Assembly: GCA_949299755.1 (NCBI GenBank)
Contig: CASGBA010000006.1
Coordinates: 1 to 64,000 of the forward strand
Length of the DNA: 64,000 nt
Source of the DNA: an uncultured Treponema sp.
Lineage (GTDB): Bacteria; Spirochaetota; Spirochaetia; Treponematales; Treponemataceae
Reading direction: 5' to 3'
Made by a program: the position numbers and the translations under genes. Below are positions 40,229-46,411 of the stretch, piece after piece; position 1 is the first letter of the stretch, and each line of letters begins with the position of its first letter. The notes below the pieces were generated by a model. It was not told the origin of the DNA. It saw only the letters and a program-made list of their open reading frames with translations, and ran no database searches.

Positions 40229-40492
40229 ATGTTTACACAGCTTGATCTGGAAAATGAATCCTCTCCGAAAGCGTACATGTTTCAGGACGCATATGACGAT
40301 TACGAAGACGATGACTTTGAAGACGATGCGGAAGGCGACTTTGATGACTATGATGATGAGGACGATTTCGGCATAGACGAAGACGACTTTGACGACTACG
40401 ACGACGAAGACGATTACGACGACGAAGACGATGAAGACGATGGTTTTGATTATGACGATGACGACCTCGATTATGATGACTTTGACGAATAA
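40229..40492 (+). CDS. Extremely acidic small protein, function unknown
   Basis: 87 residues, about 40 Asp and 11 Glu with a single Lys and regularly spaced Tyr/Phe. From residue 19 on it is a run of DDY, DED, DDF and similar units encoded by GAC/GAT/GAA/GAG triplets. AGGA lies eight bases before the ATG, and a TTGACA is upstream, so it is probably a real gene. Mixed GAC/GAT use argues against simple replication slippage. It may bind cations or basic proteins (histone-like or ribosomal), but no function can be assigned. It is divergent from ispE. Confidence 0.65.
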   Translation: MFTQLDLENESSPKAYMFQDAYDDYEDDDFEDDAEGDFDDYDDEDDFGIDEDDFDDYDDEDDYDDEDDEDDGFDYDDDDLDYDDFDE

Positions 40493-42972: not shown

Positions 42973-43332
42973 ATGAATATAAATGACATACGGCAGGCTA
43001 TAGAGGCCGAAATAGTCGAGGGAACAGAGGACTCCGGTATAGAAATACTATCAGCGTGCGGAGCGGATTTAATGAGTGATGTTATGGCCTTTGTAAAGGA
43101 TCAGGTACTTCTTTTGACAGGGCTCATAAATGTACAGGTTATCAGGACCGCCATGCTGATGGATATTCAGGCAGTTTGTTTCGTCAGGGGAAAGTCCCCA
43201 AGTCCGGAAATGATTTCACTTGCAAAAGAAAACGGCATTGTCCTTCTCAGAACAAAACTGCCGATGTTCCTTGCATGCGGAAAACTTTACGAAGCAGGGG
43301 TACGTCAGGGGGGCGTGCGTAAAATAGACTGA
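42973..43332 (+). CDS. DRTGG-domain protein
   Basis: 119 residues, a single DRTGG domain. Visible: ACGADLMSDVMAFVKDQVLLLTGLINVQVIRTAMLMDIQAVCFVRGKSPSPEMISLAKENGIVLL read in segments, matching the small stand-alone DRTGG proteins of clostridia and Thermotogales. The domain occurs in phosphotransacetylases and CBS-domain pyrophosphatases and probably binds a ligand. It is the first gene of the module with the HATPase and the hydrogenase-like protein; 30 bases separate it from the HATPase gene. Confidence 0.8.
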   Translation: MNINDIRQAIEAEIVEGTEDSGIEILSACGADLMSDVMAFVKDQVLLLTGLINVQVIRTAMLMDIQAVCFVRGKSPSPEMISLAKENGIVLLRTKLPMFLACGKLYEAGVRQGGVRKID

Positions 43333-43362
43333 AACTTCAATGAAGCACAGTATCATTATAAC

Positions 43363-43788
43363 ATGAAATACCACTACATGATTCCTGGGGATGACATCAC
43401 CTGCGCAGGAAAAGCTTCTTCGGAAATAAAAAAGGTTCTCCAACGGTTAGGCGTTGACCCTGAGGTTATAAAACGTACCGCAGTGGCAATGTACGAGGCT
43501 GAAATGAATATGGTGGTACATGCCGGAGGCGGAAACGCGGATATAGTCATTGAAAATGATACCATAACCATCACCATGAAGGATAACGGTCCCGGAATAG
43601 AAAACATTGAGCTGGCTATGCAGGACGGTTATTCCACGGCACCGGAAATAGCCCGGGAAATGGGTTTCGGAGCAGGAATGGGACTGCCGAACATGAAAAG
43701 AAATGCAGATGATTTCAAAATAGAATCGGAGCCGGGGAAGGGAACCACGGTAACAATGAAAATAAAAATACAAGGATCTCCTTCATGA
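43363..43788 (+). CDS. Anti-sigma-factor-type HATPase (RsbW/SpoIIAB-like)
   Basis: 141 residues of GHKL ATPase fold. N box AEMNMVVHA, G1 box DNGPGIEN, G2 box GFGAGMGLPNM and the G-K-G-T strand are intact, so ATP binding is expected. No His-kinase phosphoacceptor or sensor domain. In other bacteria such stand-alone proteins phosphorylate anti-anti-sigma factors or partner proteins; here the partner is probably the product of the next gene, whose ATG overlaps its stop (ATGA). No sigma or STAS gene is nearby. Confidence 0.85.
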   Translation: MKYHYMIPGDDITCAGKASSEIKKVLQRLGVDPEVIKRTAVAMYEAEMNMVVHAGGGNADIVIENDTITITMKDNGPGIENIELAMQDGYSTAPEIAREMGFGAGMGLPNMKRNADDFKIESEPGKGTTVTMKIKIQGSPS

Positions 43789-45137
43789 ACCCGGTCCGTT
43801 TTCACTCGGTTCTTTTGGAAGAAGAATCCTGCAAAGGGTGTACAATATGTGTCACCGCCTGCCCCGTGCAAGCTATCCGTGTAAGGAACGGAAAAGCATG
43901 CATCATAGAGGAAAGATGCATTGACTGCGGGGAATGCATAAGAAGGTGTCCAAATCAGGCAAAAAAAGCAAGGGCCGATAGTTTTTCCGATTTTCAGAGG
44001 AATCTTCTGAAAGAAGATTTTTTTCAATACAGGATTGCCTTGCCGGCTCCTTCGCTGTACGGACAAATACCTTCAAAATATACAATACAGGAAATCCATG
44101 AAGCCCTTTTAACCATGGGATTTAATTATGTTTTTCCGGTGGCTGCCGCCACCCCGGGGATAACCGCAGCCACACGGTTTATATTGGATTCCCCGGGAAA
44201 CATGGAACTTCCACGGCCCCTTATTTCCGCAAGCTGTCCCACAATAATAAAATTCATAAGCATAAGGTTTCCGACTCTTTTGAAGAATATCTCCCCTGTC
44301 ATCGCCCCGGTTGAATTGGCGGCGAAGCTGGCCGTCAAGGCCCTTGAAGAATCAGAAGGGAAAAAAATACCCCGGAACAAAATCAGTCTGTATTTTATTT
44401 CCCCCTGTCCCGGGAAAATCACGGAAACATTGGCACCCATGAGCGGAAAAGGACAGATTGTTAATGGTGTATTCAGCATGAAAGGGATACACCTCCAACT
44501 TTTATCCGCCCTCAAAAAAAACAGCGGCGGCAAAACAAAAAGTTCCGGAACAAACGGAGAAAAACAACCGGGGATATTCCAGGATGAAATTGCCTGGGGT
44601 CGGACAGGAGGAGAAGCGGAAGCAGCTTCAGCAGGCAAACATTACGCCCGAATATCTGTCGACGGAATCGTCCAGTGCGAAAAAATACTTGAAGCGGTGG
44701 AAGACGGTAAACTGGAAAACATAGACTTTCTGGAGCTGACAGCCTGTCCCGGAGGATGTACAGGAGGGGTTTTGACAGTGGAAAACCCTTCAATTGCGGA
44801 ATACACCATACGTTCCAGGGAAGGGCAAATAGCCGTGACACCGCAAAATATCGGGGAAAATCAATTTCAGGGAGAAAAACCCATACGTAAAGATCATATA
44901 CAACCCCGCCCCGCTTTGCTTTTGGATCCTAATTTCCAAAAAGCTGCCGCGATGATGGAAGAAATGGAGGAAATTTACAATCAGCTTCCAGGGTTGGATT
45001 GCGGATGTTGCGGCGCACCAAATTGCAGGGGGTTGGCGGAAGATATTGTCAGGGGCACAGCAAAAAAAACAGACTGCATAATTATCCTAAAAGAACAGTA
45101 CAAAGAACTTCTGGATCATGAGCGCAGAAAAGAATAA
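43785..45137 (+). CDS. [FeFe]-hydrogenase-like iron-sulfur protein with three extra cluster sites, putative sensor
   Basis: 450 residues. Two N-terminal [4Fe-4S] ferredoxin motifs (C16-C26 and C45-C55). The H-cluster region keeps L1 as SCP (C151), L2 as PCPGKITE (C208, K211, E214) and L3 as ACPGGC (C321, C325). L1 has Ser in place of the proton-shuttle cysteine next to C151, and L2 lacks the Met of MPC. These changes are typical of non-catalytic or sensory hydrogenases. A C-terminal CGCCGxPxC (C406-C414) plus C431 suggests another [4Fe-4S] cluster. Cytosolic, no twin-arginine signal. Overlaps the HATPase gene by 4 bases and the next gene by 20. No hydE/F/G maturation gene is in the window. 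Confidence 0.85.
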   Translation: MNPVRFHSVLLEEESCKGCTICVTACPVQAIRVRNGKACIIEERCIDCGECIRRCPNQAKKARADSFSDFQRNLLKEDFFQYRIALPAPSLYGQIPSKYTIQEIHEALLTMGFNYVFPVAAATPGITAATRFILDSPGNMELPRPLISASCPTIIKFISIRFPTLLKNISPVIAPVELAAKLAVKALEESEGKKIPRNKISLYFISPCPGKITETLAPMSGKGQIVNGVFSMKGIHLQLLSALKKNSGGKTKSSGTNGEKQPGIFQDEIAWGRTGGEAEAASAGKHYARISVDGIVQCEKILEAVEDGKLENIDFLELTACPGGCTGGVLTVENPSIAEYTIRSREGQIAVTPQNIGENQFQGEKPIRKDHIQPRPALLLDPNFQKAAAMMEEMEEIYNQLPGLDCGCCGAPNCRGLAEDIVRGTAKKTDCIIILKEQYKELLDHERRKE

Positions 45138-45801
45138 CAGCGGGAACCTGCCATTTCCAGGAAATCCTTCGGCCAGTGAAAAAGTCCTCCTTCGAAAACG
45201 GATGAGAGAGGAATGCCTGAAATCAAATCCGGATTTTTCATTTCCAGCGGGAGAAAACCCTGGCTTGAAAAAAACGGCCGCCACAATCGCAAAAGAATTC
45301 AACACGGTTTTTGCCTTCATTTCTGTAAAGGGGGAACCGGACACTTCGTTTTTTATCAAAGCGGCGGTCAAAGAAAGGAAAACAATTTTAGTTCCGAAGA
45401 TAAACGGAAAGGATATGTATTTTCTGCCATTTCCCTTAAATCCCGAGAAACTGGCACCAAACAAATTCGGCATACCGGAACCGACAGAAGGTGAACCGGT
45501 TTTCCCCTGTGCCGCCGGATTACCGGGTGAAAAGGCTTTCCCCTTCCCCGCCTTTATTTTAGTTCCAGGTTCCGCATTCACAAAAAAAGGGGAAAGGCTT
45601 GGGCGCGGGGGAGGATATTATGACCGGTTCCTGGAAGTTTTTCTGGACAGGTATTCAATGACAAATTTGAAATTCAAAACCGCCGGATTTTGCTTTCCAG
45701 GCCAAATACTTCAAACCATTCCTGTTGAAAAACATGATGTGAAAATGGATTGCCTGCTTCTGCCGGATGGTAGTATTATTGATACAGGAACCATACATTA
45801 A
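45118..45801 (+). CDS. 5-formyltetrahydrofolate cyclo-ligase
   Basis: 227 residues. Family signature GERLGRGGGYYDRFL (about 161-175) with the preceding LVPGSAFTKKG. The N-terminal LRKRMREE block is the usual first helix; the first 20 residues are low-complexity. It uses ATP to convert 5-formyl-THF to 5,10-methenyl-THF. The ATG lies within the hydrogenase-like gene, so it is translationally coupled to the module. Whether the link is functional (one-carbon and H2 metabolism in acetogens) or chance is unknown. Confidence 0.9.
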   Translation: MSAEKNNSGNLPFPGNPSASEKVLLRKRMREECLKSNPDFSFPAGENPGLKKTAATIAKEFNTVFAFISVKGEPDTSFFIKAAVKERKTILVPKINGKDMYFLPFPLNPEKLAPNKFGIPEPTEGEPVFPCAAGLPGEKAFPFPAFILVPGSAFTKKGERLGRGGGYYDRFLEVFLDRYSMTNLKFKTAGFCFPGQILQTIPVEKHDVKMDCLLLPDGSIIDTGTIH

Positions 45802-45823
45802 AAATTTTTCAGGAGATTTATTT

Positions 45824-46411
45824 ATGGGCGAAATACGTTCAGCCATTGACATAGCGATGGAAAAAACATCCGGAATAAAGGGAGATAAAAACGCCCTTGT
45901 AAACAGCCAGATGAAAAACGCCGGGAAAAAAGCCGCCGCGGTTTTTCTTGATACAAGCAAGGCGGAGGATTTTTTGAAAGCATTCAATGATTCCCCCGAC
46001 AAAATGAAATTCAGAGAGGGAGCCGTTCCCGTGTTTTGTACAGCCATACGTCTTCCGGAAACAGAGGACGATATTGAAAAAAACTCGCTTTGGCAACGGG
46101 GTATTGAAATTATCCTCCCGGGATCGAATTTGAACTCCCTGTTTTCCCAGTCTCAGATAATATTCAAACAATATCTGGATGACAGGGAAAATCTATATAA
46201 AGCTTTGGAGCAGCAGTTTATGCCCAGATTAAGGGCAAAGCAGGAGGAACTTTCAAAAAGGTACAACCAGAATATTACCCTCAGTCTGGCACAGGATCCC
46301 GAATACAATTCAGCCCTTTCAAAAAATCTGAAAGCCCTTCAAAGCCAATACGAAACCGTTGTTGAGGAAATGCGTTCCAGGATAATGGAAGCGTATGATA
46401 ATGAGAACTAA
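45824..46411 (+). CDS. Hypothetical protein with C-terminal coiled coil
   Basis: 195 residues from the ATG at 45824 with AGGAG eight bases upstream; a longer frame to 45767 would overlap the previous gene. Residues 1-60 are Lys/Ala-rich helical (AIDIAMEKTSGIKGD ... KKAAAVFLDTS), the middle has a strand WQRGIEIILPGSNLNSLFSQ, and about 135-190 is predicted coiled coil (RLRAKQEELSKRYNQN ... QSQYETVVEEMRSRIM). No signal peptide or membrane segment. No family recognised. Confidence 0.75.
   Translation: MGEIRSAIDIAMEKTSGIKGDKNALVNSQMKNAGKKAAAVFLDTSKAEDFLKAFNDSPDKMKFREGAVPVFCTAIRLPETEDDIEKNSLWQRGIEIILPGSNLNSLFSQSQIIFKQYLDDRENLYKALEQQFMPRLRAKQEELSKRYNQNITLSLAQDPEYNSALSKNLKALQSQYETVVEEMRSRIMEAYDNEN

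Follow-up and report, generated by a model that had tools for sequence, protein, structure and literature searches.

The window, a stretch of 64,000 nucleotides from an uncultured Treponema, carries at 42973-45137 three tandem genes for a DRTGG-domain protein, a stand-alone ATPase and a hydrogenase-like iron-sulfur protein, all of them present as the first-pass annotation had described. The genes of this locus, and the motifs within the hydrogenase gene, are as follows:

42973..43332, + strand: protein of 119 aa with a DRTGG domain, which may regulate the ATPase through an adenylate ligand (Pfam; fold of an orthologue)
43363..43788, + strand: stand-alone ATPase of the GHKL family, 141 aa, SpoIIAB/RsbW-type putative Ser/Thr protein kinase (HATPase_c)
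43785..45137, + strand: Group D (M2e) putative sensory [FeFe]-hydrogenase HydS, 450 aa (Fe_hyd_lg_C)
43830..43949, + strand: two N-terminal [4Fe-4S] motifs, hydS codons 16-55 (C16, C19, C22, C26; C45, C48, C51, C55)
44226..44240, + strand: H-cluster L1 motif SASCP, hydS codons 148-152, with ligand C151 and with S150 at the shuttle-Cys position
44400..44426, + strand: H-cluster L2 motif SPCPGKITE, hydS codons 206-214, with ligand C208, K211, and S206 in place of Met
44604..44615, + strand: TGGE, hydS codons 274-277; E277 corresponds to TamHydS E252, the proton-path Glu nearest the diiron site
44733..44759, + strand: H-cluster L3 motif ELTACPGGC, hydS codons 317-325; E317 corresponds to TamHydS E289, ligands C321 and C325
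45000..45077, + strand: C-terminal cluster motif Cx2Cx4Cx16C, hydS codons 406-431
45118..45801, + strand: 5-formyltetrahydrofolate cyclo-ligase (PF01812, 2e-27)

The coordinates of the open reading frames bear out the 30-nt gap reported earlier between the DRTGG and ATPase genes, but what had been given as a 4-base spacing between the ATPase gene and hydS is a 4-nt overlap, ATGA. The cyclo-ligase gene starts inside the 3' end of hydS, with a 20-nt overlap, and is probably co-transcribed with the trio. About 20 spirochaete loci have this gene after hydS, nearly all clostridial loci lack an equivalent, and we do not count it as part of the signalling unit. Upstream of the trio lies a gene for chorismate synthase. 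Two further open reading frames were noted in the vicinity: one of 214 aa (45767-46411), after the cyclo-ligase on the 3' side of hydS and likewise found in several related spirochaetes, and one of 87 aa (40229-40492), which encodes a very acidic, Asp/Glu/Tyr-rich product without a Pfam match.

Pfam matches in HydS comprise Fe_hyd_lg_C (PF02906, 6e-25), two Fer4 modules and a C-terminal iron-sulfur module (PF04060, 4e-11). All four ligand cysteines of the H-cluster, C151, C208, C321 and C325, occur at the positions first assigned to them; the replacement of the shuttle cysteine by serine (S150) and the loss of the L2 methionine (S206) are equally evident, T319 occupies the position of the L3 methionine, and the additional C-terminal cluster motif was recovered as C406, C409, C414 and C431. 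The cysteines of the N-terminal [4Fe-4S] motifs are each 100% conserved in 103 sequences, as is the C-terminal motif. The H-cluster ligands, K211 and the proton-path glutamates are invariant in about 100 HydS homologues, with Glu at the positions of both E277 and E317 in 100 of 100, and the position of S206 is held by Ser or Thr in 99 of 102. The AlphaFold model of HydS (pLDDT 89.9, pTM 0.88) matches the solved [FeFe]-hydrogenases DdH, CbA5H, HydABC and CpI.

According to Land et al. (PMC8163306), M2e or Group D hydrogenases combine two N-terminal [4Fe-4S] motifs, the H-domain and a C-terminal Cx2Cx4Cx16C motif, lack a PAS domain, and have a residue other than Cys at C299 and Ser or Thr at M353. 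Schumann et al. (PMC13104023) further point to conserved charged residues around the Group D clusters, which correspond in HydS to D405, D430, E419, D420, R32 and K60. Cabotaje et al. (PMC10407848) trace the Group D proton path through S249-G-G-E252, E289 and D265 in TamHydS numbering, the first of these elements being taken here from the primers and text of that paper; its counterparts in HydS are T274 and E277, E317 and D293. A Pfam scan detected no PAS domain in HydS, which ends 19 residues past C431, and the PAS that follows the C-terminal cluster in Group C (M2f) was likewise not found. Every Group D feature that we checked (cysteines, clusters, lack of PAS, S150 at C299 and S206 at M353, proton path) is present, and the hydrogenase is therefore a Group D HydS. 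Its identity as a putative sensor is well supported at the level of the family.

The ATPase is recognized by the HATPase_c model (5e-13), and its nearest relatives of solved structure are SpoIIAB (1TIL, 1L0O, 1TH8) and also RsbW. The N-box Glu and Asn that typify GHKL ATP sites are present, together with the remaining residues of the site (E45, N49, D74, G76, G78, G105, G107 and T128), and the positions E45, N49, D74, G76, G78, G101-G107 and G127-T128 are 99-100% conserved in 105 sequences. Judged by these residues the ATP site is intact. The protein scores well below the equivalog cut-offs for SpoIIAB (66 against 135 bits) and for RsbW (25 against 145 and 16 against 155 bits).

The product of the first gene matches Pfam DRTGG (PF07085) at 1.2e-4 and 22.3 bits, just under the cut-off of 25.2, and is weakly similar in sequence to the CBS-DRTGG part of the Clostridium perfringens pyrophosphatase. 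Residues D32, S35, D36 and R72-G73-K74 are at least 99% conserved among 99 sequences. The fold was read not from the protein of the window but from the orthologous domain of a natural DRTGG-ATPase fusion in Thermosediminibacteraceae (L076), modelled mostly with pLDDT >85, for which Foldseek returned 2IOJ as the best match (TM 0.79 by target), followed by 3L2B and 3L31. A second such fusion occurs in Tepidanaerobacter (L046). The model of the DRTGG-ATPase fusion has a pTM of 0.55, with low confidence in the ATPase half and no confident DRTGG-ATPase interface. The idea that CBS domains stand in for DRTGG upstream of HydS at L046 and L076 was considered and rejected, both being DRTGG-ATPase fusions. 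Fusions of HydS to the ATPase were not seen among the loci.

To survey the unit we used 59 genomes related to that of the window, counting as HydS relatives proteins of at least 36% identity, and a scan of 84,980 species genomes, which yielded 80 further HydS loci, mostly in Clostridia and spirochaetes. HydS relatives were found in 26 of the 59 genomes, and at every complete locus among them the order was DRTGG-ATPase-HydS. The search for homologous three-gene sets proposed in the first-pass annotation thus uncovered a trio common to related spirochaetes and Clostridia; that order and strand agree at all complete loci of the relatives is far beyond chance. The ATPase gene lies immediately upstream of hydS on the same strand at all 102 readable loci. 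A DRTGG gene was found at about 96 of 103 HydS loci, and some of the remainder are cut by contig ends: L114 is truncated in this way, at L061 the DRTGG gene sits downstream, and at L067, L085, L086 and L120 the same search found none upstream. Of the 26 HydS-bearing genomes in the set of 59, 25 encode the stand-alone ATPase, the sole exception having its locus cut by a contig end; of the 33 without HydS, 0 do (Fisher p = 9e-16, a value that overstates independence because the genomes are phylogenetically related). These comparisons indicate that the DRTGG protein and the ATPase are near-invariant partners of HydS in the bacteria examined, and, with the Group D features, they support at family level the earlier proposal that a hydrogenase of the H2/redox-sensor type is tied to an anti-sigma-type ATPase.

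Beyond the trio, a second DRTGG gene and a PHP-domain gene often follow the unit in Clostridia (63 of 80 loci), and hydC or hydB lies within 6 kb in about 40 of the 80 distant loci; no other conserved neighbours were found at these loci, and within 6 kb of the unit none of them conserves a STAS protein, a sigma factor or a response regulator. Mirror-tree correlations among the genes of the unit, computed on family-level distances without randomisation, range from 0.79 to 0.86 and are weak evidence; the PHP gene next to them shows correlated distances too, so that co-evolution is no specific pointer to direct contact.

The observation that the window contains neither hydABC nor maturase genes holds, but the conclusion drawn from it, that the module might be a stand-alone system, does not. 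A search of the remaining genome recovered hydA as part of an electron-bifurcating-type hydABC locus (L039), as well as HydE, HydG and HydF in one cluster (G000:C2:168188-172016), and the idea of a stand-alone system in a genome lacking maturases and hydABC was accordingly rejected. Since all three maturases are encoded, the H-cluster can be made in the source organism. The unit itself does not adjoin hydABC, either here or in the relatives of this spirochaete. Near hydABC itself (L039:14708-16776, on G000:C10) lies a gene for a CBS-CBS-HATPase fusion, followed by a second DRTGG protein and a PHP-domain protein; many related genomes, some of them without HydS, also have an ATPase of this CBS-HATPase type. 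A second stand-alone HATPase is encoded between hydC and the 2Fe-2S gene of hydABC (L039:6369-7004), an arrangement also seen in about 40 of the 80 distant loci. The genome further contains four STAS proteins unlinked to the unit, and an hfsBCD-like locus (L040:6414-11160, on G000:C3) that encodes a PAS-containing Group-C-type hydrogenase, a SpoIIE-type phosphatase and a second [FeFe]-hydrogenase-like protein.

The distribution of maturases among the relatives is less regular. In 29 of the 59 related spirochaete genomes HydE, HydF and HydG all fall below the family cut-off, a result on which four independent models agree. Seven genomes at least 90% complete (G005, G040, G047, G049, G054, G055 and G057) encode HydS without detectable maturases, and their HydS proteins keep every ligand as well as K211, E277 and E317. 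A strong HydA match without maturases was found in 17 genomes, each at least 90% complete. The HydA proteins retrieved from maturase-less genomes (for example G016, G032, G005, G040 and G055; loci L122-L140, L022, L021 and L031) mostly have the canonical motifs TSCCPxW, MPCxAKxxE and ExMACxGGC, and these include two single-contig genomes, G016 and G032; four paralogues (L126, L130, L132 and L134) have TSCSPGW, with Ser for the L1 ligand Cys, and L2 and L3 largely intact. Among the mostly clostridial HydS genomes, 33 of 39 contain HydE. The limited set of papers searched contained no report of intact HydS or HydA without maturases in spirochaetes. The combination named beforehand as speaking against an H2 sensor, lack of maturases along with loss of the cluster site in relatives, was not encountered, the source genome having its maturases and the HydS site being intact in the seven maturase-less relatives. 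We raise only tentatively the thought that a large part of the Treponema-related spirochaetes might have HydS, with its DRTGG-ATPase unit, and HydA with intact active-site residues but without HydEFG, building the H-cluster by an unknown route or using an altered cofactor; if confirmed, this would put the assembly of the H-cluster in question again. The seven near-complete genomes without detectable maturases do call into question H2 sensing as a universal input of the unit.

Taking these observations together, we lean towards the operon being a soluble signalling unit, namely a kinase switch that is gated by H2 or redox state and by adenylate and serves HydABC-linked metabolism. HydS would probably be given a complete H-cluster by the HydEFG of the cell, and H2 or the low-potential electron pool would reduce this cluster and an N-terminal [4Fe-4S] cluster, leading to a change of conformation. 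A second input would come from the DRTGG protein, a probable sensor of a ligand of the adenine-nucleotide type, as suggested by the fusions, the CBS-ATPase paralogue and the occurrence of CBS and DRTGG in nucleotide-regulated pyrophosphatases. It is predicted to dock on the ATPase because the two are fused in some clostridia and CBS domains replace DRTGG on the ATPase paralogue. The output would be the ATP-dependent protein kinase or binding activity of the SpoIIAB/RsbW-like ATPase, gated by HydS and DRTGG, which may act through a partner encoded outside the operon to regulate hydrogen, ferredoxin and NADH metabolism, with HydABC and related genes; the four unlinked STAS proteins and HydABC itself are candidates for this partner. 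The complex of the three proteins, the DRTGG ligand, the kinase activity and the downstream target are the parts of the scheme that we infer.

Other readings of the trio differ chiefly in the role assigned to the ATPase. It could be the anti-sigma factor and kinase of a classical partner switch, holding a sigma factor and phosphorylating a STAS anti-anti-sigma factor encoded elsewhere, with HydS setting the kinase and the SpoIIE-type phosphatase encoded at the hfsBCD-like locus opposing it. The fold and motifs shared with SpoIIAB and RsbW, the four STAS proteins of the genome and the position of the SpoIIE-like phosphatase at L040, where two other [FeFe]-hydrogenase genes flank it (the class listed in HydDB as phosphatase-linked C3), are in keeping with such a switch. 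However, it would be one without local partners, because the 80 distant loci show no conserved gene for a sigma factor, a STAS protein or a response regulator next to the unit, and the ATPase stays under the SpoIIAB and RsbW equivalog cut-offs; we consider it unlikely. It is rather improbable, too, that regulation is exclusively post-translational, the DRTGG protein, the ATPase and HydS, with PHP, binding and gating HydABC or the ferredoxin pool without any regulation of genes: the unit does lie beside hydABC in many clostridia, where the cluster has no conserved transcription factor, but in the source spirochaete and its relatives the two are detached, and binding to HydABC is hypothetical.

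The remaining alternatives concern HydS itself. The seven near-complete spirochaete genomes lacking detectable HydE, HydF and HydG would accord with a [4Fe-4S]-only redox protein that has the cubane alone in its H-cluster site and does not sense H2. Against this stand the residues K211, E277 and E317, which would serve a diiron site only and are invariant even in the maturase-less genomes, the full set of maturases in the source genome, the HydE found in most (33 of 39) of the mainly clostridial HydS genomes, and the catalytic activity that TamHydS displays after insertion of the diiron site (PMC8163306); we judge this reading quite improbable. Least of all do we expect the trio to be an ordinary metabolic hydrogenase operon with the ATPase and DRTGG protein as assembly factors. 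Stand-alone GHKL ATPases and DRTGG proteins do occur inside hydABC clusters too, but HydS lacks the proton shuttle and framing methionines of Group A, the characterised Group D enzyme is described as having a low turnover (PMC8163306), and the ATPase has an intact kinase-type ATP site. The gated kinase switch is the reading that we retain.

Among known systems the closest is TamHydS of Thermoanaerobacter mathranii, the model putative sensory [FeFe]-hydrogenase of Group D (PMC8163306, PMC10407848, PMC13104023). It shares with HydS the succession of two [4Fe-4S] motifs, H-domain and Cx2Cx4Cx16C without PAS, the non-Cys residue at C299 and Ser at M353, and the Ser/Thr-Gly-Gly-Glu and Glu-x-x-Ala-Cys elements of the proton path; at M497 it has Leu, whereas HydS has Thr. 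Its gene is likewise adjoined by one for a histidine-kinase-like ATPase (PMC8163306). TamHydS is encoded upstream of hydABC, unlike the unit of the window, which is detached and followed by the 5-formyltetrahydrofolate cyclo-ligase gene, and the DRTGG gene present here goes without mention in what is available of the published description. TamHydS is reported to combine affinity for H2 with low turnover and to become catalytic on insertion of the diiron site (PMC8163306); H2 alters its secondary structure and reduces an N-terminal cluster but not the C-terminal one (PMC8163306, PMC13104023). How Group D transmits its signal is stated there to be not known, because the PAS of Group C is lacking (PMC8163306) and H2 elicits no response from the C-terminal cluster (PMC13104023). 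The Group C proteins TmHydS and HfsB resemble HydS in the layout of the accessory clusters and the non-Cys residue at C299, but have the C-terminal PAS that HydS lacks.

With SpoIIAB and RsbW the ATPase shares the GHKL fold, the Glu and Asn of the N-box, and both G boxes (G1 and G2), but it has extra residues between the G boxes (GYSTAP...MGFGAGMGLPN) and lacks their linked STAS or sigma gene (80 loci, 6 kb). The DRTGG fold, as compared with Foldseek, is that of the CBS-DRTGG insert of the Clostridium perfringens pyrophosphatase (3L2B, 3L31) and of the stand-alone DRTGG protein AF1212 (2IOJ). In that pyrophosphatase, as in the unit, DRTGG and CBS are linked to the same function; there the nucleotide is bound by the CBS domains and DRTGG is needed for the effect of diadenosine polyphosphate. 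DRTGG is part of an insert in the pyrophosphatase, whereas here it is a separate protein beside the ATPase. A literature search for DRTGG and hydrogenase returned a single paper, in which each term appears once, and no description of a DRTGG-hydrogenase unit. What was known already, in part, is the Group D kind of HydS and the ATPase beside hydS of T. mathranii (PMC8163306); to this the present analysis adds the DRTGG protein and the ATPase as near-invariant partners, their fusion, the exchange with CBS and the detached arrangement in spirochaetes. The DRTGG-ATPase pair with its natural fusions, the replacement of DRTGG by CBS and the one-to-one occurrence with HydS would name the transmitter proteins of the Group D sensor, and make the question of its signal testable with three small soluble proteins.
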